DNA of 41,563 nucleotides, from positions 1 through 41,563 of the IMG/VR virus record IMGVR_UViG_3300037674_000463; one strand, given 5' to 3'. This document shows positions 15,119 through 39,718 of the stretch, one piece after another; the first letter of the stretch is position 1, and the number at the start of each line of letters is the position of its first letter. Both the position numbers and the translations under genes were made by a program. The notes beneath the pieces were generated by a model. It saw nothing but the letters and a program-made list of their open reading frames with translations. It was not told the DNA's origin and ran no database searches. Origin of the DNA: a virus.

Positions 15119-15123
15119 GTCAA

Positions 15124-15131: not shown

Positions 15132-15133
15132 TG

Positions 15134-15159: not shown

Positions 15160-15175
15160 CCAAAACTTTGAAAGT

Positions 15176-16087: not shown

Positions 16088-16098
16088 ATTATTCTCCT

Positions 16099-16144
16099 GT
16101 ATTGCGTTGTATTACGTTGTATTGCATTGTATTTGCGTTGTATT
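16099..16144 (-). repeat. 10-base tandem repeats in the gp32 leader
   Basis: On the minus strand 4.5 copies of the unit AACGCAATAC run head to tail (AACGCAAATAC, AATGCAATAC, AACGTAATAC, AACGCAATAC). They cover the last codons of gp59 (NTTQIQCNTT) and reach to within 4 bases of the gp32 ribosome site. The repeat is A-rich, G-poor and probably unstructured in RNA. T4 gp32 represses its own mRNA by binding an unstructured A/U-rich leader, so this is a candidate operator. Confidence 0.7.
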
Positions 16145-17058: not shown

Positions 17059-17914
17059 TTTTCTTGTTCTCCTTCACCCATTTTTTAATATAATCGTGGA
17101 CATCATTATGGCATTCTATATAAGGTTGAGTGCAACAGGTGCGCTTTGCCTCTCCCTTTCTATCAAATGTATGTACCACAGGATGATCAAACGCTTCTGC
17201 AATAGAAGATATTGTTTTAGGATCACCCTTTCCAAAGTGTGCTGCAGGAGGTAAGTTAGGATCAGCCATGATCTGTAACATTCCTTGTACAACATCGTGA
17301 ACATGGGTAAAGTCTCTTTCCTTTTTCCCTGTTCCATAAATTGTTAATGCTTCGCCTTTTAAATAGTCTTGTTTAAATTTCCTAACGATTGTACTATATT
17401 CTCCATAGTCAGCCTCGCCAGGTCCATATACATTATAAAAATACATCAAAACATAATCTAAAGAATATAATTTCCTATACAAATATAGTAACTGCTCACA
17501 CATTACCTTGCTAAATGTATAGGGATTTTCTTGTGCTTCTTGATATTGTGTACTCGAAGAAGTAGCAAAAAACAATTTACAATTAAATACTCTTGCCCAA
17601 TCTGCTACGGCTGTGGTTGTAGCAATATTATTGGTTATTGTTTCTGATGGATATTCTAAAGAACGCCTTACTCGTGGACTATTTGCTAAATGAAATATAC
17701 AAGCAGGTGGTTCTATTGTTGCATGATGTGGATTAAAGGTTGATACTTCTTGTTTATGATACTCAACGTTGGCGTGTTTAAAATAAACTTTTCCTGTTCT
17801 ATTATCATCAACCACAGTAACAAAAAATCCTTGTTCAAGTAAGTTTGCTACAAAGTGTGATCCAATGAATCCGCAACCACCGGTAACTATAATATTAGGC
17901 ATATCCGTTAACAT
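17015..17914 (-). CDS. NAD-dependent sugar epimerase/dehydratase (SDR)
   Basis: This is a 299-residue extended short-chain dehydrogenase. The dinucleotide motif TGGCGFIGSH is at 11-20, the Ser cluster ATSSS at 118-121 and the catalytic Tyr132-x3-Lys136 in PYTFSK. NVYGPGE, RDFTHVHDVV and the C-terminal substrate part follow as in UDP-glucose 4-epimerase-like enzymes. It is likely to act on an NDP-sugar, but the exact substrate is not readable. Initiation may be at ATG 17914 or at codon 5 (17902); the predicted transcription start is so close to 17914 that the second is attractive. Unusually, it leads the gp33-gp59-gp32 operon. Confidence 0.88.
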   Translation of the reverse strand: MLTDMPNIIVTGGCGFIGSHFVANLLEQGFFVTVVDDNRTGKVYFKHANVEYHKQEVSTFNPHHATIEPPACIFHLANSPRVRRSLEYPSETITNNIATTTAVADWARVFNCKLFFATSSSTQYQEAQENPYTFSKVMCEQLLYLYRKLYSLDYVLMYFYNVYGPGEADYGEYSTIVRKFKQDYLKGEALTIYGTGKKERDFTHVHDVVQGMLQIMADPNLPPAAHFGKGDPKTISSIAEAFDHPVVHTFDRKGEAKRTCCTQPYIECHNDVHDYIKKWVKENKKNDAKSSSRQHNKND

Positions 17915-19531: not shown

Positions 19532-19567
19532 AGCCTGGGTATATTCTCGAGTGTATTCAGGCTTTTT
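19532..19567 (+). terminator. Rho-independent terminator of lipoprotein gene
   Basis: The stem agcctg/caggct (19532-19537 with 19558-19563) is extended inward by weak and G-U pairs and followed by a run of five T (19563-19567). Its 3' part overlaps the end of the nuclease-fusion gene on the other strand. Confidence 0.75.
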
Positions 19568-24048: not shown

Positions 24049-25470
24049 TCAAAACACTTTGATATCGTATTTTTGAGCAAACATTTTACCGTCTTGAACT
24101 GTATTTACAATTGGTTTACCTTTTATATTAAGGCTCGTATTTAGTAACATAGGGCAACTTGTTTGATCTTTCCATGCTACTAATAATTGATATAGGCCTG
24201 GATGTTGTTTTCTATTAACTGTTTGAACTCTTGAAGTACCATCAACATGAACTATTGCAGGGTATTTCTCAGGCTCTTTGCATTTGACTGTATATTGCAT
24301 ATATGGAATTTCTTTAGTTGGCATTTCAAAATATTTGTGTGCTTCTTCTTCTAATATAACAGGAGCAAAAGGTCTAAATTTCTGTCTCCTTTTTATTTTA
24401 TTTACTCTGTCCTTTATGTCTGTGCCTCGAGGGTCTGCTAATAATGAACGGTTGCCTAATGCCCTTGGGCCAAACTCTGCTCTGCCGTTAGCTACTCCTA
24501 CTATATTTCCTTTAAGTAATTCCTCTATTAATTCTTGTGCAGGATATGGACCTGGTATATTGTATCCTAAATAAGGTGTAAACTCTACGTGCTGGTGTGT
24601 ATGTGCTAGAACAGCTCCTAATGATGATCCGGCATCTCCTGGGTTAGGCATTATCCATACATTATCATAATACTCTAATGCAATAGCATTTGCTACACAA
24701 TTTAATGCACAGCCTCCTTGCAATACTAAATTATTTGAGATGTCCCACTTTTTAGATATCTCTAATATTTTTCTAAATTCTTCTTCGTATATTTTTTGTG
24801 CTGCTGCTGCAAAATCAAAATACATTGTATTATGTGGATCGTCTTGATCCCACGCAAAATTTCTGCAACCTTTTTGTAGGTTTAATTGTAATAGTTTTTT
24901 CATGGGTTCATAATACTTGTCTGGATCTCCATACGCAGCCATACCCATTAAAATATATTCGTCTTCGTTTGCTTTTAATTCACACCTGTCTGTAATGGCA
25001 GAATAAAACATTCCTAAAGAAGTGGGATAACGTGTGCTCCATCGCTTACCTAGTGCACCACTCCATATACTTGAAGTCGTCCACTCTCCAATGGCATCTA
25101 TTACTATAATATTAGAATTAATAAAAGGACTTGTAAACATACCCGCTGCTGCATGTGACTGATGGTGTGTGTTGTATTTTACTGTCCAATAATCTAAACC
25201 ATAAGATCTAAGTAATGCTTTAACATTATTCTTTTGCCATTTTTGTCCACTATATACACGTCTTGTATTTTTCCAAAAAGGACTTTCGTGCCAATATAAT
25301 GCCTCGGGCTCACCATATTGTAATGCATCGTTTACTAATGCCCGGTTTAAATTCTTATCATTTTTAATACCACTATACCGTTCGGCATGTCCTGCAAACA
25401 ATATTTGATCTTCTTCAATCACAGAAATTGCCGCGTCATGGTGGCCTGCTGATAATCCCCATCTAATCAT
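24049..25470 (-). CDS. Carbamoyltransferase, NodU/CmcH family
   Basis: This is a 473-residue protein from the ATG at 25470. A longer in-frame start at 25566 would overlap the previous gene by 100 bases and add sequence unlike the family. Family landmarks are MIRWGLSAGHHDAAISVIEE at the start (kinase-like fold, metal/carbamoyl-adenylate site), AERYSGIKND, HHQSHAA, QGGCALNCVANA and, in the C-terminal domain, EFGPRALGNRSLLADPR, KFRPFAPVI and LNTSLNIKGKPIV. These enzymes transfer a carbamoyl group from carbamoyl phosphate to a sugar or antibiotic hydroxyl. The gene is last in the 14-gene run, downstream of the glycosyltransferase-like protein, so the likely target is a glycan. Confidence 0.93.
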   Translation of the reverse strand: MIRWGLSAGHHDAAISVIEEDQILFAGHAERYSGIKNDKNLNRALVNDALQYGEPEALYWHESPFWKNTRRVYSGQKWQKNNVKALLRSYGLDYWTVKYNTHHQSHAAAGMFTSPFINSNIIVIDAIGEWTTSSIWSGALGKRWSTRYPTSLGMFYSAITDRCELKANEDEYILMGMAAYGDPDKYYEPMKKLLQLNLQKGCRNFAWDQDDPHNTMYFDFAAAAQKIYEEEFRKILEISKKWDISNNLVLQGGCALNCVANAIALEYYDNVWIMPNPGDAGSSLGAVLAHTHQHVEFTPYLGYNIPGPYPAQELIEELLKGNIVGVANGRAEFGPRALGNRSLLADPRGTDIKDRVNKIKRRQKFRPFAPVILEEEAHKYFEMPTKEIPYMQYTVKCKEPEKYPAIVHVDGTSRVQTVNRKQHPGLYQLLVAWKDQTSCPMLLNTSLNIKGKPIVNTVQDGKMFAQKYDIKVF

Positions 25471-28186
25471 TTTTATAAGGATGCAAAGATAACAAGATAT
25501 CTCTTTTTCTGTCTTTAAGTTGTTGGTGTTTGTTTTGGTGTAGGAAGTGAAACCTGTTAAATGCAAGTTTATGTCTTATTGAATTATACTTTTCATTTTT
25601 ATCATCTGTTGATATTCCTTTCCAATTCTCTAGTTGATCTATTATGCACTGGAGTCTTTGTTTTGGATCTTTAAAGGCATCATAAAATTCATCAAACATT
25701 TCTGGGAAAGTTTGATACCCTTGTTGTCTTAAATATCGAAGTGTGTATGGAAGGCCTACAATAATAAATGGGTGATAGTTCATTAAAGGTTTATATGTTT
25801 TTTCTGTAATAAACAGGTTCATTAATTGATTGGAATCGTTTTCATAAAAAATTGTTTCGTTGACTAGGGAAAAATATGATGATTCATATAATGTTTTGTC
25901 AAAATACCTATCATCTTGTTGTAGTTTTTCTGATGAAATATCTAATTTTAACTGGCGGGGCTCTCTAAAATATTCATTTAAATGATCTCTCTGTGTTTTA
26001 GTATTAAATAAATCATTATTAATTTGATCTAAAGTCGACTTCCAATGCCTTTTGTATTGTGCTGCTCCTCCATCTTCTCCATAGAATCGTAATAAGAAGC
26101 TGATATAAGAGTTAGTTTTATCATAACCTAATCGATCTAATTCTGATACAATCGCTAGTCTATGTTGTCTAGGTAAACCATTAAAACATAATAAGTCGCG
26201 GGTTTTATCTTCCGCTGTTGGAACACTATGTATTGTTTCACGTTCATAGATAGAGTCTGGTTGAATAAACTCTCTTGCGTTGTCTATAGTAAACAATCCT
26301 CTTTCCAATGGATCTGTTCTTAATACATATTGTTGTCTATATAAAAATTGAAAATAATCATAACCAATTGTTTTGGTAAATTCACTTTGTTGTCCGGCCG
26401 GATTATTGGCAATCCAATGATCATAATTCTTAGTAAAGTTTATATCGCCATATATAAAATAAGAATATATTCCATTTAACTTTTCGGCTGTCATGGCCCC
26501 ATTTAATTTTTCCATCCACCAATGTGAATCTAAATGGAATCCTTCGTGAGGGAATACAAAAACTATTTGCATCATTCTCTTTCTAGCTAGATCTTTTACT
26601 TTTTCCGGTATGTCTGCTATAAGGTTAGAAATGCCTTCTAAATAAGCAATTTCGATAAAATAATAATTATGTAAAGGATGGTTTTTACCGTGTACATTTT
26701 CATTAAATTTGTTTATGTCCATCAACTTATGATTTAAATCTGCGTATTCATACCACCATTGCATGTTTGATCTTTGAGAAGCAGTAACATTTAAACCATC
26801 TCTAAAACAGTTTCCAGGAACATATGGCTGATCTTGTGCAATAGGCCTACCTGATACAGGTCCTTGCTTGAGCTTGTCAAACCACAAGTAAAAAATATCA
26901 GTAGGATTGTGAAAAGATCTATCAACTATAAAAGGAGGAACAATTTCCCCGAAACGATCTGGACTTGCAACCGCGTTGGACGGCATACCTATTTCCCATT
27001 GTCCTGATTTCCAATGAGGACGTCTAGGTTGTGGAGGATAATCTTTAGCAAACTCTTCCATTGTGAAGTAATGCTCCCATGGCACTTGTATAGAATTTTG
27101 TTCTTTTGATTTAAATACCTCATCTATATTGTCTACTCTTTCCCAATTTTCTTTTATGACTTCACCTAAACGTTTTCTATTAGCCCATAGTCGTGGTGAG
27201 AGCTCATTATATTTGTCCTCTAACTCCTCATGGCTAAGTGCTGTTATTCTCTCCAATTGATTTGTTATATAGTCTATTCGTCTTTCATAGTCAGGGTGTG
27301 ACATGGCTTGTAAAATATCTGGAAACATGTCTTCAAAAATATCAAAGCCCATTTCTTTTAATTTTTTATAGAGATTTTGATCTCCTAATATTAAGAAAGG
27401 CCTTAAACCTATTATAGGTTTAAAAGTTTTTTCACTTAAGAATATATCTGAATGAATACACGATTCTGTAACTACTGTAAGAAAATGTCTGCTCCAATTT
27501 TCAACATCACCTAACGTAGCAATATCATTACAGCTTTGTCCTACCCACTCTGACATTAATGGTTGGTCTTCTATTTCATGTTCTTCATCTAATATAATTG
27601 GATTTTTAAATTTGTAATCATTGTGTGGTTCCATGGCTGAGATAATTCCAAAATTTTCTAAGCCTTGATCATGTATCTTATTTAAAAGTGTGACTCTATG
27701 ATCATGTGGTTTTCTGTTGTAGCACAAAAAATGTTTACCATTTTGTCCAACTGTTCCATCTGGTTTACGGGCTAACTTAGGAGGGTTTATCCATTTCGCC
27801 CTTGCATAACTTGCCCAATGATTGTCTATATACTTTAACCAATAACTAAAATAATATCCTTTGTTTGTATTGCCTACATGATAAACTTTATCGAAATTAT
27901 CTTGTATCAATTGGTGTGCGTCTTTTCTTTTATTAATGCAATTTGTATTTTCCCAGTCTGGTCCTGAGTACACCGCTGCTTCAGTACATGTAGTTTCTGA
28001 AATAAACTTTTTTAATCCTTTTAAATCATCACCCAACCAGGTTGAGTTTATCAAACAAATGTTCCCCGGCAATCTATCTAAAAGATTTTGAACGATGCCT
28101 GTTTCCATTTTGCTTATAGATGTTGAAGCCTCTGGCCAGCCGGCTTGTGTTGGGTCGTCAAAACCAATTGTATAATATCTATTCAT
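25463..28186 (-). CDS. Large protein with two glycosyltransferase-like modules
   Basis: This is a 907-residue protein. A first module lies at about 150-350: FLCYNRKPHDHRVTLLNKI (153-171), then IFLSEKTFKPIIGLRPFLIL (248-267). A second lies at about 663-880: LLCFNGLPRQHRLAIVSEL and LFITEKTYKPLMNYHPFIIV (from 791). The EKTxKP-plus-hydrophobic-strand motif recalls the donor-binding motif of GT10-type fucosyltransferases, but I cannot assign a family. Between the modules (about 370-660) is a different, aromatic-rich region (HYFTMEEFAKDYP, IAYLEGISNLIADI). The start and stop overlap the neighbouring genes by 8 bases each. Its place between radical SAM genes and a carbamoyltransferase suggests glycan building or modification. 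Confidence 0.65.
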   Translation of the reverse strand: MNRYYTIGFDDPTQAGWPEASTSISKMETGIVQNLLDRLPGNICLINSTWLGDDLKGLKKFISETTCTEAAVYSGPDWENTNCINKRKDAHQLIQDNFDKVYHVGNTNKGYYFSYWLKYIDNHWASYARAKWINPPKLARKPDGTVGQNGKHFLCYNRKPHDHRVTLLNKIHDQGLENFGIISAMEPHNDYKFKNPIILDEEHEIEDQPLMSEWVGQSCNDIATLGDVENWSRHFLTVVTESCIHSDIFLSEKTFKPIIGLRPFLILGDQNLYKKLKEMGFDIFEDMFPDILQAMSHPDYERRIDYITNQLERITALSHEELEDKYNELSPRLWANRKRLGEVIKENWERVDNIDEVFKSKEQNSIQVPWEHYFTMEEFAKDYPPQPRRPHWKSGQWEIGMPSNAVASPDRFGEIVPPFIVDRSFHNPTDIFYLWFDKLKQGPVSGRPIAQDQPYVPGNCFRDGLNVTASQRSNMQWWYEYADLNHKLMDINKFNENVHGKNHPLHNYYFIEIAYLEGISNLIADIPEKVKDLARKRMMQIVFVFPHEGFHLDSHWWMEKLNGAMTAEKLNGIYSYFIYGDINFTKNYDHWIANNPAGQQSEFTKTIGYDYFQFLYRQQYVLRTDPLERGLFTIDNAREFIQPDSIYERETIHSVPTAEDKTRDLLCFNGLPRQHRLAIVSELDRLGYDKTNSYISFLLRFYGEDGGAAQYKRHWKSTLDQINNDLFNTKTQRDHLNEYFREPRQLKLDISSEKLQQDDRYFDKTLYESSYFSLVNETIFYENDSNQLMNLFITEKTYKPLMNYHPFIIVGLPYTLRYLRQQGYQTFPEMFDEFYDAFKDPKQRLQCIIDQLENWKGISTDDKNEKYNSIRHKLAFNRFHFLHQNKHQQLKDRKRDILLSLHPYKND

Positions 28187-29441
28187 ATATAAATGGGTCC
28201 TGTTTTCTAATACGTTTTAAGTTCCAATCAGGGTCTATGCTTGCTATCTCTGGTAATTCTTCCTGCCAAGTTTGATCTCTTACTGCATCAATTCTTTCCA
28301 TTTCTAAAATAAACCGTTCAACCATTTTAGGATTTTCTTTTTGTGAATTCATAAAATCTATAAAACCATTAATGTGTTGTATCAAAGTCTGTATTTTCCA
28401 TGGTTGTTCGTATGTTTCTTTTAATTCTTTTTCCCACTCTCTCCATACAATTTCTATTTCTTTCTTTTTTCTCTCAGGTAAAATTCCAACGTTTAACCAA
28501 AAAGGAAAGTGAACTAGATTTATATTAAAATTAAATGGTTCATCTATTAATCCTTGTCTTAACAATTCACGATGGAAGTCTGGTATGTGCATAGCGTTTT
28601 GTATGCTAACTGTAGCATTAATACCAAACTCTACTTTAGGTGTTTTTTCTTTCATTTCTAATCTGTTATTGACCCACTTCTCCCAATCTAAACCTGTACG
28701 AACAAACTCTCCTCGAGGGCCGTAGCCATCTAAACTTGCTGACATTGTTACCCTTTTAAACTTACCCCATGAATCTAATATGTTTTGACTTTTATAAAAG
28801 AACTGACTTAAATTTGAATTATAAACTAAATGTACACTTGTTCTTCCCATTTCTATAAGTCTATTAATAATCCTATAATGCTCTTCCATCATTAAAGGTT
28901 CCCCACCAGCAAAATATATTTTTTCTACTATAGGAAAATAAGGCTCTATTTCCTCCCACAATTCAAAAACTCTTCCAGGTTCCGGAAGGTCAGGTGGTAA
29001 ACTACCCCATATCTTTTTAGTATCTTTATACCAACCAGAGCTTAGTTGTGGGCCACAGCTACGACATGAGAAGTTACATATATTAGAAAAACGAAAGTCC
29101 CAATATGCTAAATCCATATCATCTAATGTTCCGTCTTCTTTTACATTGTCCCATTTTTTTAAATGAGGAGCAAAGTCTCTTGCTGAGGTATTTCTAAAAG
29201 ATTCATTACCTGTGTCTTCTTCTTTAAAACAATTAACACATTCAGGAGGTCTTTCCCCTGCTAACATCTGCCTTCTGATTCTACGCATAGGATCATCATT
29301 CCAAATCTCTTTCAAAGTATTGTTTTTTAGTGAACCTACTTGATGATCTATATTTCCAAGACAACAAGCATACACATCTTTATTAGGCCATGTATGTAAA
29401 TGTATTACAGGTAATACGCACTTAGTATCTTTATCTGTCAT
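28179..29441 (-). CDS. Twitch-type radical SAM protein A
   Basis: This is a 420-residue protein. The N-terminal twitch-type cysteine region has Cys8, Cys26/27 and Cys68/71 (TKCVLPVIHLHTWPN, VYACC, ECVNCF), expected to hold an auxiliary iron-sulfur cluster. The radical SAM motif CxxxCxxC is Cys122/126/129 in FSNICNFSCRSCGPQLSSGW. YFAGGEPLMMEEHY is the GGEP strand that binds SAM. Its closest relative in the window is protein C (shared GEFVRTGLDWEKW / GEYIRTGIKWDEW). The start overlaps the stop of B. The substrate is unknown. Confidence 0.85.
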   Translation of the reverse strand: MTDKDTKCVLPVIHLHTWPNKDVYACCLGNIDHQVGSLKNNTLKEIWNDDPMRRIRRQMLAGERPPECVNCFKEEDTGNESFRNTSARDFAPHLKKWDNVKEDGTLDDMDLAYWDFRFSNICNFSCRSCGPQLSSGWYKDTKKIWGSLPPDLPEPGRVFELWEEIEPYFPIVEKIYFAGGEPLMMEEHYRIINRLIEMGRTSVHLVYNSNLSQFFYKSQNILDSWGKFKRVTMSASLDGYGPRGEFVRTGLDWEKWVNNRLEMKEKTPKVEFGINATVSIQNAMHIPDFHRELLRQGLIDEPFNFNINLVHFPFWLNVGILPERKKKEIEIVWREWEKELKETYEQPWKIQTLIQHINGFIDFMNSQKENPKMVERFILEMERIDAVRDQTWQEELPEIASIDPDWNLKRIRKQDPFIYE

Positions 29442-30648
29442 AATCTTTTATCAAGTCATAAAATTCTGGGAAAACATCTTTATACTTTTCTTTTCGTATA
29501 ATGTCTTGCCTGTTAGTAATGTCAAAGAATCTAAATAAAAGATTCTCATCACGTTCAATTGTTAAGTAGTTTTTTACATTATCATAAAAAATTTCACCTT
29601 CAGCTTTTTCAAGTATCTTTTCCTTTATATTTATAGGAAGGATAGCAGGATCATAGTAGTCAGGTTCCGTAACATAGTTAGGCGAAACGTAAGGAACAAT
29701 CTCTTTAAAATATTCATGAAACTCTTTTAAATAAAATATGTTTAATATAGAAATTGTTTGTAGTATAGAACAAAAGATATTATCATGTCGTTCTTCTAAT
29801 TCTTTAAACCATTTAATTGTTTCTAAAGTTTTGTCCCATTTAGCAGGGAACCTCATATATTCGTTTCGTCTTTCTATGTCGTCTATAGACCACATTAATT
29901 GTACTTCTTTAAATTCCTTCCAAGCATCTTCGTAGTCTTTGCCTGATACTGTTGTGTTTGTAGAATAAACTAAGGTAACATTTTTTGCTACATCTTTTTT
30001 AACAAGCTCTTCTAAAAACCCTAGGTGTTTGTCTATAAGTAACGGCTCTCCACCGTTTACATAAACATACCTTAATTCGTCTATGTGTGGTAATAATTTA
30101 TCCCAAAAGTTTTGATCTTTTGGCCAGTTCATATTAGTTTGTGGAACCTCTAAATAGCTCTTCTCTAAATCTAAAAGTTTCCATTCCTTTTTCCAACGTG
30201 AACTTGAAATAGGATTACATGTTCTGCATGCTAAGTTACAATGGTTTCCTAGACGTAGTTCTATAAATTCATAATTAACTTCTTTTAGTGTACCGTCTAT
30301 GTTTGTTATTTTTATAGCATCTTCTTCTTTAAAATTTAACCTTTGAGATTCAACTGTTCTTTTACTAGGGTTACCGGCTGCTTCAGAGTTCCAACATTTT
30401 TTACATTGATCTGGATACTCTCCATTAAGCATTTTTAATCTAACATCATTAAAACTTTCACTGTTAGTTATTTTGTTGAAGTCATATTTAGTGGCCAATA
30501 GCGTATTAAAGACTCTGGTTTGTGAGATTGTAAAGTGTGCATTTGAAACACCATCTAGTGTTTCTGCCTCACAACACAAACTAACCTGTCCGTCAGGGTG
30601 TGTTGCTAAGTGATTCCACGGTAATGGACAAAATGATTTAGATGCCAT
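29431..30648 (-). CDS. Twitch-type radical SAM protein B
   Basis: This is a 405-residue protein from the ATG at 30648, which has AAGGAG 7 bases upstream; an in-frame ATG at 30672 is possible. The twitch cysteines are Cys7, Cys25/26 and Cys82/85 (SFCPLPWNHLATHPDG, SLCCEAE, QCKKCW). The radical SAM Cys137/141/144 are in LGNHCNLACRTCNPISSSRW, and YVNGGEPLLIDKH is the GGEP strand. The C-terminus (KYKDVFPEFYDLI) and EYMRFPAKWD pair it with protein D. The first bases overlap the end of C. Confidence 0.85.
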   Translation of the reverse strand: MASKSFCPLPWNHLATHPDGQVSLCCEAETLDGVSNAHFTISQTRVFNTLLATKYDFNKITNSESFNDVRLKMLNGEYPDQCKKCWNSEAAGNPSKRTVESQRLNFKEEDAIKITNIDGTLKEVNYEFIELRLGNHCNLACRTCNPISSSRWKKEWKLLDLEKSYLEVPQTNMNWPKDQNFWDKLLPHIDELRYVYVNGGEPLLIDKHLGFLEELVKKDVAKNVTLVYSTNTTVSGKDYEDAWKEFKEVQLMWSIDDIERRNEYMRFPAKWDKTLETIKWFKELEERHDNIFCSILQTISILNIFYLKEFHEYFKEIVPYVSPNYVTEPDYYDPAILPINIKEKILEKAEGEIFYDNVKNYLTIERDENLLFRFFDITNRQDIIRKEKYKDVFPEFYDLIKDYDR

Positions 30649-31945
30649 CAAACCACTCCTTACCTGGATCATTTAATATCTCTCTGTATGTCAACTCTTG
30701 ATCTCTTATCTTTTCTAAAAACATTATATTTTTCTTTCCATTGTGTAGACCTTCCCGTAGTTCTTCGCCTTCCCATTGTTGTTCAAAACTTGGCCTTTTG
30801 ATTAAGGCTTTAAGTGAATCAATATATACCTGTGTCTTCCATGTTTTTCTTGGTTCCATGTATTCTATAAGTTCATTACAATATGGCTCTACAATAGATT
30901 TAGGCAACGCGTCTGGTGCCATAATAACATTAGGTGTAAAAGCGTATGTAAATTTAAAATAAGATTTTACATCTAGTTCTGTTACAACATCAAACAAATC
31001 TTTTAATCCAAATAGTCCTGGTGTTGTAAGTGTAACATCAAACACCATGCCGTCATCTCCATATTCTTCATTTATCCACAGTCCTTTTTTAAAATTAACA
31101 AGCCATTCGTCCCACTTTATTCCTGTTCTTATATACTCACCTATTGCTCCTGCACCATCAATGCTTGCACATATATTCATGCTTTTAAATCCGTTTAACA
31201 TATTATATAAGTTATAATGTTTATAATCAATTCTACTGAGATTTGTGTTGTAACGTATAGTAATCTCTTTTTTCCTTTTGGAGTCTTTAAGTTGATCCAT
31301 TATTGTCCAATGTCTTTCCCACATTAAAGGCTCTCCACCCACCCAATAAATTTCTTCTATTACATCTTGATCAACTGCCGCTTGTAGTTCTTCTTCTAAA
31401 ACTTCTTTTTGGAAGTTTGTTATTTTCCTTCTGTTGTTAGGTTGTAGCCACGGATCTTCTTGCATACGATCATTTATTTTATTCTCTGCCTCCCAAGATG
31501 AAGATAGTTGATCACCACACATTCTACATTTGAAGTTACATAGATTAGATAAACGATAATCATATGACACCGGCACCATTGTTGTATGGCCTGTTTCGTC
31601 TGTCGTGTCTAATATGTCTTGTATTTTATGTGGGAATAGTGTGTCTACAAAATAGGATCTATATGTATGTAGGTTTAAAACATTCTCATTACATACGACG
31701 CATTGAGGAATTGCCTCGCCTGCTAACATACGCTTTCTTATGTCTTTCATATATTCACTATTCCAATGATGTTTTAATGATAAAGGATCAAACGTTACGT
31801 CTGGATTTTGTTCTCCTGTGTCAATATATTGTTTCTGAAAGTCTGAATCTTCTCTACTAGCACAACACAAGCGTCGTTCACCTTGCGGGCTAACGTAAGT
31901 ATGTGTCCATGGTGCTGTGCAAAGATACTTCATTCGTATTTCCAT
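30638..31945 (-). CDS. Twitch-type radical SAM protein C
   Basis: This 435-residue protein could also start at codon 5 (31933), where ATGA overlaps the stop of D. The twitch cysteines are Cys9, Cys27/28 and Cys82/85 (YLCTAPWTHTYVSPQG, LCCAS, QCVVCN). The radical SAM Cys136/140/143 are in LSNLCNFKCRMCGDQLSSSW, and YWVGGEPLMWERHW is the GGEP strand. It pairs with A by sequence and by alternate position in the run. It contains extra charged sequence at about 150-190 (QPNNRRKITNFQKEV). Confidence 0.85.
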   Translation of the reverse strand: MEIRMKYLCTAPWTHTYVSPQGERRLCCASREDSDFQKQYIDTGEQNPDVTFDPLSLKHHWNSEYMKDIRKRMLAGEAIPQCVVCNENVLNLHTYRSYFVDTLFPHKIQDILDTTDETGHTTMVPVSYDYRLSNLCNFKCRMCGDQLSSSWEAENKINDRMQEDPWLQPNNRRKITNFQKEVLEEELQAAVDQDVIEEIYWVGGEPLMWERHWTIMDQLKDSKRKKEITIRYNTNLSRIDYKHYNLYNMLNGFKSMNICASIDGAGAIGEYIRTGIKWDEWLVNFKKGLWINEEYGDDGMVFDVTLTTPGLFGLKDLFDVVTELDVKSYFKFTYAFTPNVIMAPDALPKSIVEPYCNELIEYMEPRKTWKTQVYIDSLKALIKRPSFEQQWEGEELREGLHNGKKNIMFLEKIRDQELTYREILNDPGKEWFDGI

Positions 31946-33114
31946 CCATGGTCTGTTAAGACTTTATAAAACTCTGGGAAGAATTCTCTAAAGTCTTCTT
32001 TTCTATATTGATCACTTTGTATTACATTAGGTGCAAACAATTCCCATTCTGAAGGTATGCTTTCTTTGCCATTCATAAAATTTATTATTTCAACTACTCT
32101 AGGGTCTTCTTTTCCTAAATGCTCTTCTACCACAGGTTTTACATCTTCCGGAATGTTTGTTATACAAAAATGCCATGGACCGTGTACTAAATTTAAATAT
32201 ATATTTTCGCCTTCAAAGTATTCTAAAAATTCAGGTATATACCAAACGTTTAGAGTGCTTACTGTATGAGCAATACATATATGATACTTATCACTATGTT
32301 TAGATATATACTTTAACCTTTTAAAATTTTCTATAACATGATCCCATTTTGCTGGGTGCCTCATAAATTCATATCTATTTTTTATTCCATCTAAACTAAA
32401 ATCCAATTGAACCTTTTTAAATTGGTTTAATATTTTAAGTTTCTCATCGTCCCATATTGTTCCGTTTGTATTATAATGTAAAGATATATCTTTTGAATAA
32501 CCTAGTTCAATGGCCTGTTCTAATAGCTTCCATTGTTTCTTCATTAACATAGGTTCACCACCGTACATGTCGATATATTTTATCTTAGGTAAATGACTGT
32601 GCATATCATTCCAAATAGCACTATCATCTTCAAACGATTTATTAAACTCTCTAAAATATTCTTTAAACTCTAATGCACCTGAGGCTTTATCTCCATAACC
32701 ATCATGTAAAGCTAAGAACTCTTTGTTCCAAAAAGAACTATTGTCTGGACCACAAGTTCTACATTTTATATTACAAGTTGTTCCCATATTAAGATCTAAT
32801 ATTTGAACCTGTGTACTTCTGTCAAACTCTGCTCTGCCTTCATTGTCTGTAATTCTTTTACTTTTTCTACCAACGTTCTCTTGGCTCCAACAAGAGTTAC
32901 AATGTGGGTCTTGTATTCCTTTATCTAAATTGTGTCTAATTTGATTTGCTGTATGACTATTAATAGCCTCGTCTAAACTATTTTTACGAATGTTTAACAC
33001 ATTACCCAACTCATCTTGATAAGGAATTGTTTGTAAACAGCAGCTCGTACATGTACCTTTGTTGTCTACACGAACTCCTTTGTCTAAATTAACACAGTAG
33101 AAGTCACTCATCAT
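31930..33114 (-). CDS. Twitch-type radical SAM protein D
   Basis: This is a 394-residue protein. The twitch cysteines are Cys7, Cys22/25/26 and Cys72/75 (FYCVNLDKGVRVDNKG, TCTSCC, HCNSCW). The radical SAM Cys114/118/121 are in MGTTCNIKCRTCGPDNSSFW, and DMYGGEPMLMKKQW is the GGEP strand. It resembles B across the barrel (EFMRHPAKWD, STLNVWYIPEFLEYF) and at the end (REFFPEFYKVL). The start lies inside the last codons of E. Confidence 0.85.
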   Translation of the reverse strand: MMSDFYCVNLDKGVRVDNKGTCTSCCLQTIPYQDELGNVLNIRKNSLDEAINSHTANQIRHNLDKGIQDPHCNSCWSQENVGRKSKRITDNEGRAEFDRSTQVQILDLNMGTTCNIKCRTCGPDNSSFWNKEFLALHDGYGDKASGALEFKEYFREFNKSFEDDSAIWNDMHSHLPKIKYIDMYGGEPMLMKKQWKLLEQAIELGYSKDISLHYNTNGTIWDDEKLKILNQFKKVQLDFSLDGIKNRYEFMRHPAKWDHVIENFKRLKYISKHSDKYHICIAHTVSTLNVWYIPEFLEYFEGENIYLNLVHGPWHFCITNIPEDVKPVVEEHLGKEDPRVVEIINFMNGKESIPSEWELFAPNVIQSDQYRKEDFREFFPEFYKVLTDHGWKYE

Positions 33115-34618
33115 AATCGCCTAACGGCTCGTCTATGTTTTTATTATCAGGATCTAATATCCAACCTTCTTCTTTTGCTATTCTGTTTAGATCTTCCTCT
33201 CCAACGTTGTCTCTTGTACTATCGCCAGATGTTAATGTTGCAATATTTAATATTGTTGGTGGCAAAGCATCTAGCCAATCTGTTAATATTTCAGGAAACA
33301 CACGAATATCCTTTCCTCTCCTTATATCGTATTGTTCATAAAATGATTTAAAGTCTCTCCACAATGAGGTTTTAGAACTTGTGCGCCTATGTGGTGCGTC
33401 AACATGATCTAAATAATCTATTAAACGTTCTATATTTCCTCTTTCTATTCCTGTCCACAAACCTTTGTCGTCTTGTGTGGCATACCAGTCCATAAGTTTC
33501 TTTCTAACATAAATTTTAATGTGATCGGGTAATGCTAGTGGACTTTGAAAACTAGGGAAACGTAATAGATTCAAAGTAACTGTTGGTGACTTTGTATTTT
33601 TAATTAGTTTTAATTTATAAACATGATCTAAAAATTCTGTAATTGAAAACAAGCATAAACTATTAATAGTCATCATTATATGAAGGCCTTCATAGTTTCC
33701 TTCTGCAATAAAACGTCGCATGTTCTTGTCCCATGTTTTCCATATAAAATTGTCTCTTACATACTCTTGATGTTCTCCGTAACATTCTGCGCTTGTGTAA
33801 ATGTGAAACTTTTTAATGTCTTGGCTTTTCTTAATTAAATTATCTAAAATTTTCTTTTTACATATTAAGTTACTATTAATTGCCAAACGCATTTCAGGAC
33901 GTGCTTTCATTTTCTTAAACAGTTTCCATGTCTCTCCTGACATTAACGGTTCACCACCTGTAACTCTCAGCTCTTCTAATTCATCTGCTAGGCCTCCATC
34001 CCACCAATCCCAGAATGCTTTTATATAAGGATTTGTTTCAGGTGTTACTGCATCTCTTCCAAAAGGCTCTGTCCATTTACCATCTTGTTGAAACGCTGCT
34101 GCACCATCACTAACTAAATTCTGATAAGGTCCATCCTTCTTAATATCTTTAGCCCATGTAGTAGAGAAACTTGCATTACAATAACTACACGCTAAGTTAC
34201 ATACTCTATCAAATGCTATTTCAAATGTTTTTAAATTTGTATTATCATTGAAGTCTGCGTTGTATGCTATGTCTAATTGTTCAGGTGTATATATGTTGGA
34301 TTTAAATATCCTGTCTGAAGGGTTCTTATCTCCTGGTATGTCTTCCATTTTCCAACAATACTCACACTCGCGAGGACGATCACCTTCTTGCATCATCTTA
34401 CGCATTGCTTTTTTGTGTTTTGTGTTGTGTATGGCTGAAGGGTTTCCTTCTAGTTCTACTAATGGAATTTTATGTGCCGGAGGGTGATGACAGCTAGCAG
34501 TTGTCCCACTACCTAACCATGTAGTAGCGTTATACCATTTGGCACCACAGAAACTTGCAGACTTAGTATCTAAGTTTTCTTTTCGCCACTTAATTAACTT
34601 TTCTACTTCTTTAGACAT
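33104..34618 (-). CDS. Twitch-type radical SAM protein E
   Basis: This 504-residue protein is the longest of the six. In the twitch region the usual CC pair is replaced by SCHHPPAHKIP (Cys43 followed by His-His), with Cys24 and Cys85/88 (SFCGAKW, ECEYCWK). The radical SAM Cys140/144/147 are in FDRVCNLACSYCNASFSTTW, and RVTGGEPLMSGETW is the GGEP strand. An extra C-terminal 50 residues (ILDPDNKNIDEPLGDYDE) is unique. GGAGG lies 6 bases upstream of the ATG, inside the end of F. It is paired with F. Confidence 0.85.
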   Translation of the reverse strand: MSKEVEKLIKWRKENLDTKSASFCGAKWYNATTWLGSGTTASCHHPPAHKIPLVELEGNPSAIHNTKHKKAMRKMMQEGDRPRECEYCWKMEDIPGDKNPSDRIFKSNIYTPEQLDIAYNADFNDNTNLKTFEIAFDRVCNLACSYCNASFSTTWAKDIKKDGPYQNLVSDGAAAFQQDGKWTEPFGRDAVTPETNPYIKAFWDWWDGGLADELEELRVTGGEPLMSGETWKLFKKMKARPEMRLAINSNLICKKKILDNLIKKSQDIKKFHIYTSAECYGEHQEYVRDNFIWKTWDKNMRRFIAEGNYEGLHIMMTINSLCLFSITEFLDHVYKLKLIKNTKSPTVTLNLLRFPSFQSPLALPDHIKIYVRKKLMDWYATQDDKGLWTGIERGNIERLIDYLDHVDAPHRRTSSKTSLWRDFKSFYEQYDIRRGKDIRVFPEILTDWLDALPPTILNIATLTSGDSTRDNVGEEDLNRIAKEEGWILDPDNKNIDEPLGDYDE

Positions 34619-35990
34619 TCCATTCCTCCAGTAGATGTGCCATTCCAGGATATACCTTTGTAAAGTCCTTTCCCCTTCTCATATCATAAGCCTTAATAAA
34701 ATTAACAAAATCCTTTCTAAATTTTAGTTGTGTTGGTTCTTGTAATAAGTAATGACACCAACGTTGAAGTTGATCATACTCTTCTAAGTATAGCCTTGCC
34801 CACTTATCAGGCGAGTTGTATTTTAACCAACGTTTACCTTGCTTTAAAAATATACCTACAAAATATTTTCTAGTGTCTACATCTAATAACGTTGATTGTA
34901 AGTGAGGAGGCCATCTTAAATAATTTAAACTAATAGGAACCCTATTATTCTCTAAACATTTATTAAATTCTATTCTTAGTTTCATTACATCTTCTATAAA
35001 ATTATAAAATCCATGTAAACACAATATATTCAATGTTGTCATTATAGCAACAAGCGAATTTGTTTCTGTTAATATTCGTCTACAGTTTTCATACCAGTAG
35101 TCGTAATCAATTCCGTCCCTGGCATACTCTGCATATTCCCCTGAACTTTCAACACTTGTATAAACATCTATTCTATCTACTTTATCTTCTAACCGGTTTA
35201 TATACTTAATTAATTTATCAATAAGTTTTTTATCTGTTCCTAAATTAGTATTAATTGCTATTTGTAACTGTGGTTGTGGATTGTCTATTATATATTCAAG
35301 TGTTCTCCACACATCTTTTGACATTGTAGGCTCTCCACCAGTAACTCTAAAGACCTTTAAGTGTGGCAATACTTCTGGCATATATTTAAACCAAGCTTCC
35401 ATATAAGGGTTGTCTTCACTACGCTTATATGGAAACTTACCTACCTGTTTTAGATATTCTAAATCATGGTTGCCATTTTCTACAGGATAGTTGCCATGTT
35501 CTTCTACATCTTTCATCCATGTAGATGATATGTCCGGACTACAATAAGCGCAGGCAAAATTACATGAATTGGCAAACGATACTTCTAGGTATGAAGGATA
35601 AACATCATCAGCCGGTGAGCTGTTAGCAATTTCTTTAAACCTATCCCATGCCCACCAATCAGATGTTTTGTAATGTCTATCTGAGAAATAATTTTTATCT
35701 AAGTCCTCTATTTTCCAGCAGTAGTCACATTCCTTTGGACGGACGCCGTTAAGCATCTTAGCTCTTTGTTCTTTTTTATAGTGTGAGTTGTGTAGTGCTG
35801 CTGGATTAGCTTTTACTTCTTCTACAGGGATCTTATGTGCTGATGGATGGTGACAGCTATGGTTGAATCCATTTTGAAGGTACAGAGTTGTTTGTAGCCA
35901 CTTGGCGCTACAAAATGAAGGACTAACTGTATTAATCTCATCACGTTTTAATTCTAAAACCTTTATTCTTTCTTCATTAGTATTGATCAT
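34611..35990 (-). CDS. Twitch-type radical SAM protein F
   Basis: This is a 459-residue protein, the first transcribed of the six. The twitch region has Cys27, Cys46 followed by His-His (NHSCHHPSAHKIP) and Cys88/91 (ECDYCWK). The radical SAM Cys143/147/150 are in FANSCNFACAYCSPDISSTW, and RVTGGEPTMSKDVW is the GGEP strand. It shares with E the CHHP signature, the N-terminal KRDEINTVSPSF-type segment and the EYARDGIDYDYW region. Its ATG directly adjoins the methyltransferase stop. Confidence 0.85.
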   Translation of the reverse strand: MINTNEERIKVLELKRDEINTVSPSFCSAKWLQTTLYLQNGFNHSCHHPSAHKIPVEEVKANPAALHNSHYKKEQRAKMLNGVRPKECDYCWKIEDLDKNYFSDRHYKTSDWWAWDRFKEIANSSPADDVYPSYLEVSFANSCNFACAYCSPDISSTWMKDVEEHGNYPVENGNHDLEYLKQVGKFPYKRSEDNPYMEAWFKYMPEVLPHLKVFRVTGGEPTMSKDVWRTLEYIIDNPQPQLQIAINTNLGTDKKLIDKLIKYINRLEDKVDRIDVYTSVESSGEYAEYARDGIDYDYWYENCRRILTETNSLVAIMTTLNILCLHGFYNFIEDVMKLRIEFNKCLENNRVPISLNYLRWPPHLQSTLLDVDTRKYFVGIFLKQGKRWLKYNSPDKWARLYLEEYDQLQRWCHYLLQEPTQLKFRKDFVNFIKAYDMRRGKDFTKVYPGMAHLLEEWNV

Positions 35991-36575
35991 TCACTTCTTA
36001 CCAATTCCCATAAATCTCTTCAATGGATTAGATTTACCATTTACAAAATCCCAAGGGCCTTCATAAGGTAACTCGTCTAACATAATATAATCGGTAAGTT
36101 TATTTTTAAATGCAAACAAATCTATATCTTCGTATGCTCTAACATGATCTTTTTCACTAAAATCATTATTACCTTGTATTATATAATGTGTACCCTCGGG
36201 TATATTATCAAACCACGTATCATATACTTTCTGACTAACGTGTTCTGTACTTGTATTTATTACTAAATCAGGTGTGTAATCGTAGGAATACTTAGACATA
36301 CACCCACCCCAAGTAGTGTATTTTTGTGCACACCACTCTAAATAAAATTCTTGTTTATCAACACAGGTTATATCCTCAATGGTTAACATGTCTGCCAACA
36401 CACCATACCAGGATCCAAAAATAATACATGACTGAACCCGTGGAAAGCGCTGGTTTACCTCGTCTACTAACCAAGCTTTTGCGTTTATTTGACTTGGCCA
36501 AAAAGCATCAAGTCCATCTGGGTGGGTTCTAATTAGTTCCATCCAACGTTCTAGTTGTGTGTGATTAAAGTTCAT
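35991..36575 (-). CDS. Class I SAM-dependent methyltransferase-like protein
   Basis: This is a 194-residue protein. The Rossmann SAM-binding loop is probably SCIIFGSWYGVLADML (49-64), the acidic ribose-binding residue Asp73 (ITCVDKQEF), and the motif IV region DLVINTSTEHV (103-113), followed by YIIQGNNDFSE. This combination is typical of small phage class I methyltransferases. The target is unknown. It overlaps the SGNH gene by 11 bases and abuts the first radical SAM gene. Confidence 0.78.
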   Translation of the reverse strand: MNFNHTQLERWMELIRTHPDGLDAFWPSQINAKAWLVDEVNQRFPRVQSCIIFGSWYGVLADMLTIEDITCVDKQEFYLEWCAQKYTTWGGCMSKYSYDYTPDLVINTSTEHVSQKVYDTWFDNIPEGTHYIIQGNNDFSEKDHVRAYEDIDLFAFKNKLTDYIMLDELPYEGPWDFVNGKSNPLKRFMGIGKK

Positions 36576-37260
36576 TTTCTATTTTCCTTGCAAGACTTTG
36601 TATTGATTCCGGGCCAGGGTGTCCTCCATCTTCTGTATAGTCTATTTGTTGAAGTTTCATCTTTTTAAATTTCTTTTCCCAGTACATAAGATGTTTTGTT
36701 TCGTTCAAATCAAACCATGTCCATTCAATTAGTTTTGTATTCCCTTTACACATCATTTCAACAGAGTCCATTACTAATTTAGAATATTCAATTAAGTTTA
36801 ATTCGTTTCTTTGTATAAAATCACTATATGGCTTGTTTAACCATGGGCCTATTTTGTCAATATAATCTGGCTGTCTAAAATCTCCTATTCTAAAAAATGT
36901 TGTCCAACCCATCACAACCATATATGGCCAGCCATTTTCTTTAACTTGATCTATAAGTTTCATCCAGAAATGAAAATTAGATTCTGCTGGATAACCAAAA
37001 TTGATTACCTGCCTTTGTGTTTTAAGAACATTATGTAATTTTTCTTTATCTTGTAATTGATATCCTGCTGTAGTGGAACATCCAAACAATAGAACAGATT
37101 CTTTCCATTTAGTATAGTCAGGCAGTTGACGATCTCTATTAGTTTGCAATCCATTAAGATCATTACCTTTTGCTGTTGCTATAGGTTTGTAATATCTACT
37201 TCTCATGGCATAAGGAGTATCTCCATCTAGGTTCCCTAATGGTGTGTCATAGATTTTCAT
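36565..37260 (-). CDS. SGNH/GDSL-type hydrolase
   Basis: This is a 231-residue protein from the ATG at 37260. That ATG overlaps the previous stop as ATGA and has AAGGA 7 bases upstream; a start 15 bases earlier is less likely. Block I is VLLFGCSTTAGYQ with nucleophile Ser62, block II INFGYPAESN, and the catalytic Asp211-x-x-His214 lies in DGGHPGPES. SGNH enzymes remove or transfer acyl groups on sugars, lipids or esters. In this run, next to an acetyltransferase, a role in acyl decoration of a glycan or lipid is a reasonable inference. Confidence 0.82.
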   Translation of the reverse strand: MKIYDTPLGNLDGDTPYAMRSRYYKPIATAKGNDLNGLQTNRDRQLPDYTKWKESVLLFGCSTTAGYQLQDKEKLHNVLKTQRQVINFGYPAESNFHFWMKLIDQVKENGWPYMVVMGWTTFFRIGDFRQPDYIDKIGPWLNKPYSDFIQRNELNLIEYSKLVMDSVEMMCKGNTKLIEWTWFDLNETKHLMYWEKKFKKMKLQQIDYTEDGGHPGPESIQSLARKIENEL

Positions 37261-37847
37261 TTTATTCCTTTCCATATTACATTGTTTTTAGGCATCCATT
37301 TATACCCTTCTTCAACATCTATATAATAAACGTTTTGTAAAAACTCTGAACCCGGGTCAACATCAAACCAAAATCTAGATTCTAATTTTATATTTTTAAA
37401 TGAATCTAATTTGTATGGCTCTCTACTGTGGCCTGGAACATGTCTTTTATGTTGATACAAGGCATTCATTCCTTTTGCATCAACATCATGTGTCATGTAT
37501 ATTATTTTAAAACCTTCTTCTTTTGCTTTCTTTACACAATAGTCCCACAAATAAAATCCTAATTGATTGTGTCTAAATTCTTTTAATATGTGATAACGAC
37601 AAACTCTAACTGCAACATCAGGTGTTCCCACATAAGTATCTGGCTCATAAGAACAAAACCCTGCAATCTTATCAAACTTATCGTAACGACTATTGCATGT
37701 TATTAGTAAAGGTGTTCCGGGTGTTGTCTCTACATTATATTTGTCGGGAGTAATAGATGTATTACCCTCTTCTAATGCTTGTTCTTGAATTAACCTTACT
37801 GCTGACTCAAGTTCAGTGCCTTTTATGTCGTCAATAATCTTATGCAT
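37257..37847 (-). CDS. GNAT-type acetyltransferase
   Basis: This is a 196-residue protein. The acetyl-CoA-binding motif A is probably VCRYHILKEFRHNQLGFYLW (82-101), with the loop RHNQLGFY in place of the usual RxxGxG/A. KIIYMTHDVDAKGMNALYQH follows as motif B. The degenerate loop makes the call less certain. AGAAGGAC lies 8 bases before the ATG, within the end of the oxygenase gene. Confidence 0.7.
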   Translation of the reverse strand: MHKIIDDIKGTELESAVRLIQEQALEEGNTSITPDKYNVETTPGTPLLITCNSRYDKFDKIAGFCSYEPDTYVGTPDVAVRVCRYHILKEFRHNQLGFYLWDYCVKKAKEEGFKIIYMTHDVDAKGMNALYQHKRHVPGHSREPYKLDSFKNIKLESRFWFDVDPGSEFLQNVYYIDVEEGYKWMPKNNVIWKGIK

Positions 37848-38488
37848 TCAAAGTCCTTCTGTCCATCAATTGATGCTATTAAATAATGCCTTAAATCATT
37901 TCCCTTATGATAAACTGCATGCTTATATCCTATGTTTAAAAAGTAACATCTTTTTGTCTTCATTTCAACTACTTTGTGTTCTCCGTTTACCCAAAAATGA
38001 TTTTCAACTCCTTCGTTGCCACTTAAAGGAATGATTACCCTCATGGCATAAGTTGTATTATAATCTATGTGTGGTGGTACCTGTCCTCCAGGACGCATGC
38101 GAGAGAAACGAACCCGTATCAATTTATCGTGGAAAGCTCCATTGAGATGATGTTGTAGTGTGGAGTCCTTGTAAAAATCAACGGGTTCGTCCCAATTATG
38201 TTCGTCCATAGAGAACGGAATCTTGCGTGAAATTTTTTGTTTGGTTGTGTATGTTGAGGCGTCTTCTAATTCTTCTTGTTTACGACATTCTGTTAAATGG
38301 AATGTTTCTACGTCTTTGTAAGTATCAGATGCAATTGAATTACTAGCTACTGCTAGGCCTCTGTGTGATGTGAAATTATCTTGCCACTTGTCATAATGTT
38401 CCCACAGAAAATCTTCTATGAGATTGTAATCTAATTCTATTGGTAGTTCGGCAATATGTGGATAGTGCCTCTTGTTATATTTTAACAT
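37823..38488 (-). CDS. Aspartyl/asparaginyl hydroxylase-like 2OG oxygenase
   Basis: This is a 221-residue protein from the ATG at 38488; a TTG three codons earlier is possible. The jelly-roll metal site is His140-x-Asp142 in PGGQVPPHIDYNTT, with distal His190 in FLNIGYKHAVYHKG and Arg200 for 2-oxoglutarate. MRVIIPLSG and HFWVNGE are the surrounding strands. These residues match the aspartyl beta-hydroxylase-like family. The substrate (protein or small molecule) is unknown. It is the second oxygenase in the window, unlike the one at 14363. Confidence 0.8.
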   Translation of the reverse strand: MLKYNKRHYPHIAELPIELDYNLIEDFLWEHYDKWQDNFTSHRGLAVASNSIASDTYKDVETFHLTECRKQEELEDASTYTTKQKISRKIPFSMDEHNWDEPVDFYKDSTLQHHLNGAFHDKLIRVRFSRMRPGGQVPPHIDYNTTYAMRVIIPLSGNEGVENHFWVNGEHKVVEMKTKRCYFLNIGYKHAVYHKGNDLRHYLIASIDGQKDFECIRLLTT

Positions 38489-39215
38489 CTCGATCAATCA
38501 TCCTAATAAGTTGTCCACCTAGATCTAAAGGATGCCAAATAACTCTCCTGGCTGTCCTGTGATGTACTTCGTGGAACCCTTCACCTAATGTTAATAATCC
38601 TACCCACATATCACTATGAGCTTCTCTGCCCCTATGTGAAAATGTGAATACCAACGATCCTATCATTTTAGCAAACCCTGCTGGAATAAGCCAAGCATAT
38701 AGTAGTGCATAAGGATCTATAATAGTTAATAGTATTGCCCAAACACCAACGACATGCCAATAATATTTAACTTGTGATCTGTGTAATTTGTCTTTTAATA
38801 AATCCCTAACAAATTTGAAATTTATATCTATAAGAACTTGTCCAAAGTATGCTAACATTACTCCTCTATAATAAGGCGAGTGTGGGTCTTCCTTTGTGTC
38901 AGCATATTTATGATGTTCACGATGATTAGCAGCCCAAGTAAGAGCAGGGCCAATCATCATTATATGAGGCCCGAATAATAATACATATTCAAACCATCTA
39001 GGGCATTTAAAATTTCTGTGTGAGAAATATCTGTGATATCCCATTGTAACACCCAACATAATATAACAATACATGCCAACTGCAATTGCTATTGTAGCGG
39101 GTGTCCAATTAAATAGGAATAAAGAGAGAACAGCGGTTACTTGAGCAATAAGCTGTCCTGCCAAAAGGGTTACTGGTGCCCATGATTTGTTTTGTTTAAA
39201 TACTGCTTTTCTCAT
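38475..39215 (-). CDS. Fatty acid desaturase (acyl-CoA delta-9 type)
   Basis: This is a 246-residue integral membrane enzyme. All three histidine boxes are present: HRYFSH (61-66), HREHH (98-102) and HEVHH (215-219, preceded by EGF). At least three hydrophobic membrane stretches occur, such as LLAGQLIAQVTAVLSLFLF and VVGVWAILLTIIDPYALLY. It would insert a cis double bond into membrane acyl chains, using a host electron donor. The family is rare but known in marine phages. AAAGGAT lies 6 bases before the ATG, and the start overlaps the previous stop (ATGA). Confidence 0.92.
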   Translation of the reverse strand: MRKAVFKQNKSWAPVTLLAGQLIAQVTAVLSLFLFNWTPATIAIAVGMYCYIMLGVTMGYHRYFSHRNFKCPRWFEYVLLFGPHIMMIGPALTWAANHREHHKYADTKEDPHSPYYRGVMLAYFGQVLIDINFKFVRDLLKDKLHRSQVKYYWHVVGVWAILLTIIDPYALLYAWLIPAGFAKMIGSLVFTFSHRGREAHSDMWVGLLTLGEGFHEVHHRTARRVIWHPLDLGGQLIRMIDRDVKI

Positions 39216-39523
39216 TGATCCTTTACTCTGGAGCGAAATTTACGAACTGTTCCATCATAAAATAACATACGAATCCAAGGAGTACCTCTCCTCATTCTAG
39301 GGACTGTATATTCCCAACCTTGATCTTCATTGTCTACCCATATGACGTGATAGCCTATCCAGCGGTTGCTCGGATACCACCTGGCACGTCCTCCCTCCGC
39401 AATCAACTTTTCCAATGTCCAAAAATAGCAATTGTTCTTCGAAGTAAAGAGCCTAACAGGCCAAGACCAGAAGAATATCAACATCAGGAAGAAGGTAAAT
39501 AATACTCTAAGTTTCAATTTCAT
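39212..39523 (-). CDS. Small membrane-anchored protein, first gene of the enzyme run
   Basis: This is a 103-residue protein. An N-terminal hydrophobic segment (VLFTFFLMLIFFWSWPV) is followed by a basic, aromatic-rich soluble part (GGRARWYPSNRWIGYHVIWV, RRGTPWIRMLFYDGTVRKFR). I do not recognise the family. The next gene is a membrane desaturase, with which it shares an ATGA overlap, so a partner role in the membrane is possible. A late promoter stands 11 bases upstream of the ATG. Confidence 0.65.
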   Translation of the reverse strand: MKLKLRVLFTFFLMLIFFWSWPVRLFTSKNNCYFWTLEKLIAEGGRARWYPSNRWIGYHVIWVDNEDQGWEYTVPRMRRGTPWIRMLFYDGTVRKFRSRVKDQ

Positions 39524-39542: not shown

Positions 39543-39718
39543 GTAGAACTAAAGCAGTTTTATCATCTCTCTCATAGAGATTTATAAGAGTTTATTGATT
39601 CTTTTAAGTCTTTTGGTGTTGTAGAATTATAAATACACTATAACTTATATAATTTCTTTGTCATATACCGTATAGCGGCCTAATGATGTGCTTAACCAAT
39701 TTAGGGGACAAGGAAACC
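39543..39718. other. Divergent intergenic region
   Basis: It holds the plus-strand late promoter and a small inverted repeat atctct/agagat (39565-39570 with 39576-39581) of unknown use. Nothing gene-like is seen apart from an upstream in-frame ATG at 39683 without a ribosome site. Confidence 0.55.
39628..39635 (+). promoter_or_regulatory. Late promoter for Asn/Thr-repeat protein
   Basis: An exact TATAAATA on the plus strand. It would give a leader of about 80 bases to the ATG at 39719, which has ACAAGGA as ribosome site. Confidence 0.7.

Follow-up and report, generated by a model that had tools for sequence, protein, structure and literature searches.

Why should a virus carry six radical S-adenosylmethionine (SAM) genes side by side, and what could their products act on? 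This question is raised by IMG/VR virus record IMGVR_UViG_3300037674_000463, whose 41,563 nucleotides (the window) hold six such open reading frames (ORFs) in a row on the minus strand at 28179-35990, transcribed in the order F, E, D, C, B, A. The window belongs to a marine T4-like phage, with a gp32-like protein, a ligase, an exonuclease and tail proteins as markers; its gp32-like protein is closest to those of cyanophages (~57%), which does not fix the host, and no tRNA genes were found in the window; a host among the Bdellovibrionota is at most a conjecture. The six array genes encode old, co-inherited and non-redundant enzymes. We give a probability of about one half to the reading that this old set forms the core of an operon building or remodeling a carbamoylated surface glycan or glycolipid. 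The array consists of the following genes:

34611..35990, minus strand: radical SAM protein F, 459 amino acids (aa); 298.5 bits to NF033640; AlphaFold2 predicted local distance difference test (pLDDT) 93; orthologues in other phage arrays
33104..34618, minus strand: radical SAM protein E, 504 aa; 288.9 bits to NF033640; sister family of F
31930..33114, minus strand: radical SAM protein D, 394 aa; 285.3 bits to NF033640; sister family of B
30638..31945, minus strand: radical SAM protein C, 435 aa; 311.6 bits to NF033640
29431..30672, minus strand: radical SAM protein B, 413 aa; 354.8 bits to NF033640
28179..29441, minus strand: radical SAM protein A, 420 aa; 376.6 bits to NF033640

The ORF positions bear out the six consecutive overlapping genes described in the first-pass annotation, with overlaps of 8, 11, 16, 35 and 11 bases. 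The CxxxCxxC motif, GGEP and a conserved arginine are present in all six proteins, and four N-terminal cysteines (CX18C...CX2C) align in all of them, with the first two lying 19 residues apart in each. A motif check of the proteins confirmed the CxxxCxxC, GGEP and N-terminal cysteine features reported for the whole set, as well as the segments said to be common to pairs of genes: SCHHPxAHKIP in E and F, MRxPAKWD together with FPEFY in B and D, and GE[FY][VI]RTG in A and C. The similar ends ascribed to A and C were not found, as A ends in ...RIRKQDPFIYE and C in ...GKEWFDGI. Moreover, GE[FY][VI]RTG is weak evidence of kinship between A and C, because it is a variant of the stretch around an arginine (R291 of F) that is invariant in 30 of 30 aligned family members. 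The ratios of nonsynonymous to synonymous substitution rates (dN/dS), calculated with the close relatives L009 and L010 as references (and a third, L011, for F, E and C only), were 0.05-0.23 for all six genes, the fastest being D and A. Therefore, no array gene is decaying; the six are under purifying selection.

All six proteins matched the NCBIfam model NF033640 (N_Twi_rSAM) with 285-377 bits (E-values of 8e-85 to 2e-112) against a curated cut-off of 170 bits, and in each case the match spans model positions 1 or 2 to 387-397 of 398. By this sequence comparison, their membership in the family is not a matter of chance, and the full-length matches above the cut-off uphold the earlier twitch-type assignment. 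For A, B, C and D, Pfam assigns the N-terminal region to SPASM. While NF033640 models single proteins of unknown function, the window has six divergent subfamilies in one operon, with 17-35% identity to F. The AlphaFold2 model of F, the sole array member modeled, adopts a radical SAM core fold; its best Foldseek matches among solved structures were SkfB, BlsE and SuiB, with viperin, NifB and AprD4 also among the matches, and its best viral structure matches were little-annotated radical SAM proteins of uncultured phages. Sequence similarity to characterized enzymes was low (MoaA, 1e-4; BlsE and BtrN, not significant). One explanation would be antiviral or nucleotide chemistry of the viperin kind, and five of the six proteins do match the prokaryotic viperin model NF038283 weakly (15.9-26.6 bits). 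However, the cut-off of that model, 180 bits, is far above these scores, and the same proteins score at least 250 bits higher with NF033640; the array proteins also have an extra cluster domain that viperins are without. All this makes viperin-like chemistry very improbable.

The shared motifs had also led the first-pass annotation to propose paired duplications, with D-C and B-A as two copies of one two-gene unit. In its strictest form, this model holds that the unit was duplicated recently within the phage lineage and that the redundant copies raise dosage. Our careful tree contained 64 rows of phage and bacterial sequences; like the other trees, it is unrooted and silent on the direction of transfer between phages and bacteria. 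In it, B is sister to D (100/99) and E to F (100/100), which upholds these two pairs of families. The pairing of A with C was not recovered, though not rejected either (P = 0.157 in the approximately unbiased test, p-AU); an earlier, larger and quicker tree had joined these two at 87. B, C, D and E each formed one clade with starred support, F did so at 94/95, and A formed one clade apart from two divergent rows. The C clade (100/100) takes in bacterial chromosomal genes, and the orthologue clades of B, C, D, E and F, and nearly that of A, span phages and bacteria. The closest relative of every window gene is an orthologue in another phage's array, and forcing the window's D and B to be mutual nearest kin was rejected (log-likelihood difference 241, p-AU 2e-54). 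The recent D/B duplication is thus refuted, which leaves an ancient duplication of single genes.

The gene order in other phages also bears on this history. IMG/VR scans returned 61 loci with F as the query and 24 with D. Of the 81 fetched viral loci, 46 have four or more such genes in a run, and many of these runs comprise six or seven; the proportion is not an estimate of frequency, since the loci were chosen for holding a homologue and some are near-duplicates. The arrangement is therefore not peculiar to this phage. With gene types assigned by best BLAST match to the window, which is approximate for distant members (for these the tree is the better guide), the order F-E-C-B-A-x-D was found in L012 and L013, and likewise in L022, where E and C are separated by one additional gene; F-E-A-C-B-x-D in L014 and L019; and F-E-C-x-B-A plus one more gene in L015-L017. 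Only in the window's close group (L008-L011 and L066) is D placed between E and C. Among isolated phages, D matched only distant Vibrio phage genes (~23-26% identity), F gave two weak matches and E none. In related phages, a structural-type protein in which Gly-Tyr-Gly is repeated at length (L041, 4910-5959) is encoded upstream of an F-type gene.

A genome scan with the E/F alignment as the profile, which favors carriers of E/F in the bacterial set, returned mostly Bdellovibrionota. Among these, L124, a chromosome from a Bacteriovoracaceae metagenome-assembled genome, carries the same six types in a partly identical order, E-C-B-A-D and then F-E plus another F-type gene, flanked by a gene for an Obg GTPase and, at the other end, by what reads as an Lgt gene. 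Since other orders occur both in phages and in L124, the adjacency of D-C and B-A in the window is probably secondary, as probably is the place of D next to C; most simply read, D has moved, and the D-C, B-A pattern is a coincidence of order. Because these orders and the orthologues are seen in other phages and on a bacterial chromosome, the duplications predate the divergence of these phages and bacteria. With D and B rejected as nearest kin, orthologues of each gene in other phages and in bacteria, and a different gene order elsewhere, a recent dosage-raising duplication is the least credible of the explanations weighed here, even though B/D and E/F are sister families with shared motifs.

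At least one strong NF033640 match was found in 16 of 59 genomes drawn from the phylum of L124 (seven of them with four or more), compared with 3 of 150 in Pseudomonadota and 1 of 80 in Bacteroidota; each count includes the positive genome at its center, and the phylum of L124 was subject to a stricter E-value limit. Among genomes picked as positive, the copies above the cut-off number 19 in one, where a single 56-kb contig carries 13, and 16 in a second. Radical SAM islands are located on the Bdellovibrionota chromosomes L124, L142/L178/L179, L175-L176 and L180-L182, and differ from the phage array in being often larger and more scattered; L178, L179 (G004:C192) and L177 (G003:C7) are chromosomal islands with an extreme expansion of N-terminal twitch radical SAM genes. 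Some islands adjoin a carbamoyltransferase gene (L181), ABC-2 exporter genes, DegT sugar aminotransferases, MBOAT, or GT1/GT2 glycan genes, and the amidinotransferase in the largest island is closest to inosamine-phosphate amidinotransferase and SxtG. A Pfam tally of the Bdellovibrionota neighbors showed no dominant family, because many copies are solitary. In L182, a PqqD-like protein (14652-14933) lies directly upstream of a glycosyltransferase gene and is divergent from the E-type gene. L181 also has B12-type radical SAM genes (10857-12239 and 14713-16359) beside its twitch genes and carbamoyltransferase, and the window itself has a seventh radical SAM gene, of the B12-binding type, outside the array (12415-13905, minus strand). 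L167 looks like a phage contig binned with bacteria, and the same probably holds for L165.

The array occupies the middle of 14 consecutive minus-strand genes in the window (39523 to 24049), all of whose junctions overlap or abut. The other genes of this operon, together with a sugar-type gene elsewhere in the window, are as follows:

39212..39523, minus strand: unknown protein, first operon gene, overlapping the next by 4 bases
38475..39215, minus strand: fatty acid desaturase-like membrane protein (Pfam FA_desaturase, 1.6e-15)
37823..38497, minus strand: hydroxylase of the Asp_Arg_Hydrox family (PF05118, 3.6e-9)
37257..37847, minus strand: GNAT acyltransferase (Pfam Acetyltransf_1, 3e-7)
36565..37275, minus strand: SGNH/GDSL-like protein, so called by sequence reading, with no Pfam match
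35991..36575, minus strand: small methyltransferase-like protein, abutting F with zero gap
25463..28186, minus strand: 907-aa GT-B-like protein, directly after A (model and Foldseek)
24049..25470, minus strand: NodU/TobZ-type O-carbamoyltransferase (Pfam Carbam_trans_N and _C; PHROG Nol-like, 345 bits)
17015-17914: epimerase, distant from the array, with a strong sugar-type match

The family of the small methyltransferase-like gene was found by clustering in 25 fetched loci, often directly upstream of F; its label comes from a relative's Pfam match to MTS, a weak one below the threshold. For the 907-aa protein, self-comparison revealed a module of ~110 aa present twice, and its model (pLDDT 73.5) matched SenB, VldE, SdgB, GlgM and a fucosyltransferase in Foldseek, so that, with moderate confidence, its C-terminal half is predicted to have a GT-B-like glycosyltransferase fold. 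The carbamoyltransferase, whose start was taken as an internal ATG (the ORF list has a TTG start at 25566), matched a novobiocin-type carbamoyltransferase and the GdmN and TobZ structures in phmmer. On the plus strand at 39683-41296, next to the operon and divergent from it, lies a gene whose product looks secreted and contains a Thr-Asn repeat of great length; counterparts are similarly placed in L015, L016 and L061 (cluster c72).

Stepwise tailoring of a surface glycan fits these data best, with peptide modification as the main rival. The modified glycan or glycolipid would belong either to the host envelope or to the virion. Each array enzyme would cleave SAM at its CxxxCxxC cluster, and the resulting 5'-deoxyadenosyl radical would take hydrogen from a defined sugar carbon; the N-terminal [4Fe-4S] cluster may then accept an electron, giving oxidation, or help return hydrogen, giving epimerization. 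BtrN provides a precedent for oxidation, and NeoN and HygY for epimerization. These enzymes, together with BlsE and AprD4 (both found in the fold search), resemble the array proteins in the proposed sugar chemistry, but the sequence similarity is low and the auxiliary cluster of the window proteins is N-terminal to the core. Different array members would act at different positions or stages, while the GT-B protein would add a sugar, the NodU-type enzyme would carbamoylate it, and the trimming of an acyl part would fall to the GNAT protein, the desaturase and the hydroxylase. The purpose of the pathway may be an altered recognition of the host or phage surface, e.g., blocking other phages. The earlier suggestion of stepwise chemistry on one substrate or on related substrates is still plausible.

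As for the traits of a surface-glycan cassette, the window has a strong carbamoyltransferase and, by model only, a GT-B protein, and the clearer sugar genes are in its relatives. The carbamoyltransferase gene was found in 10 of 16 array-bearing virus records, against a baseline of 143 of 50,697 phage records obtained by tblastn with the window's protein, a method that differs from that of the first count. UDP-glucose/GDP-mannose dehydrogenases, a nucleotide-sugar epimerase, a GT7 with a lectin domain and a GT2 are encoded near the arrays of relatives, and in L174, a marine single-cell virus record, a carbamoyltransferase gene is immediately followed by a gene reading as a twitch radical SAM protein. 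Iron-sulfur assembly genes were considered as general partners of the arrays and rejected, as just 1 of 16 array-bearing records has an A-type carrier that exceeds the cut-off.

Several points weigh against a glycan substrate. No substrate or reaction was found described for any NF033640 member; the only strong sugar-type matches in the window are the carbamoyltransferase and the distant epimerase; the window's glycosyltransferase rests on a medium-confidence model; and many Bdellovibrionota copies have no glycan gene nearby. Although BlsE, one of the best folds for the F model, acts on a sugar, the peptide-modifying SkfB and SuiB are among the best matches too, and the only PDB sequence matches of D by phmmer were SkfB and another SPASM-type protein. 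These matches would fit the modification of a ribosomal peptide or of a virion protein such as a tail fiber, as carried out by SPASM/twitch maturases, and some related arrays come, by reading, after tail-fiber-like genes. The Gly-Tyr-Gly-repeat protein of L041 would, if this were right, be a possible substrate, and the conserved Thr-Asn-repeat protein next to the operon and the PqqD-like protein adjoining an E-type gene in L182 are in line with it. However, the array and its operon leave no gap for a precursor peptide gene (which may lie at a distance), no PqqD domain was present among the window proteins scanned, and the PqqD-like gene of L182 is followed by a glycosyltransferase gene. Furthermore, none of the six proteins passed the cut-off of any peptide maturase model, the best score outside NF033640 being 38.8 bits (TIGR04317, cut-off 380). 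Peptide modification thus appears unlikely, if still to be taken seriously.

A diffusible aminocyclitol- or nucleoside-like compound, used against competitors or as a signal, seems somewhat less likely again. Radical SAM enzymes, a TobZ-type carbamoyltransferase and the inosamine-phosphate amidinotransferase relative of the bacterial island together resemble aminoglycoside pathways, and BlsE and AprD4 are among the fold matches; but the amidinotransferase is absent from the window, no gene for self-protection or small-molecule export was recognized there, and the operon includes acyl-type genes.

Marine phages with multiple radical SAM genes are already known. The marine T4-like viral genome TARA_ERS488813_N000010 has 12 (PMC5332604), and its likeness to the window is that of a T4-like marine phage with many radical SAM genes, whether of NF033640 or of another family; that study counts these genes under iron-sulfur-related functions, without an array, subfamilies, order or neighbors. 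Pelagimyophages, also T4-like marine phages, have radical SAM cassettes in a variable host recognition region rich in lipopolysaccharide glycosyltransferases (PMC7029224), which resembles our case in joining surface-sugar genes to such cassettes; there, the cassettes are named in passing, with no division into subfamilies and no bacterial link. Neither the conserved array nor its connection with Bdellovibrionota was described in the papers that our searches for the array, for NF033640 and for radical SAM in Bdellovibrio returned. Tentatively, and with less confidence than in the glycan-tailoring operon itself, we propose a multi-step radical pathway, common to marine T4-like phages and Bdellovibrio-type bacteria, in which at least six dedicated N-terminal-twitch enzymes make or decorate a new kind of surface sugar; the phages would carry this pathway whole as one operon. 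An array that keeps the identity of its members across phages and bacteria offers a way into a large orphan branch of the radical SAM superfamily, in the form of a pathway that is bounded and testable. Such an array would mean that radical chemistry in lytic phages extends over several steps instead of being confined to single add-on genes, and it connects these phages with Bdellovibrionota, in which NF033640 is strongly expanded.

Finally, the minus-strand gene at 19557-21509 encodes a PD-(D/E)XK exonuclease (PHROG 298) in an unusual fusion with two further segments: an N-terminal CxC...CxxC stretch, by its sequence reminiscent of a Bfd-type [2Fe-2S] domain, and a C-terminus that is a copy of the ~110-aa 'TEKT(F/Y)KP' module of the 907-aa GT-like protein.

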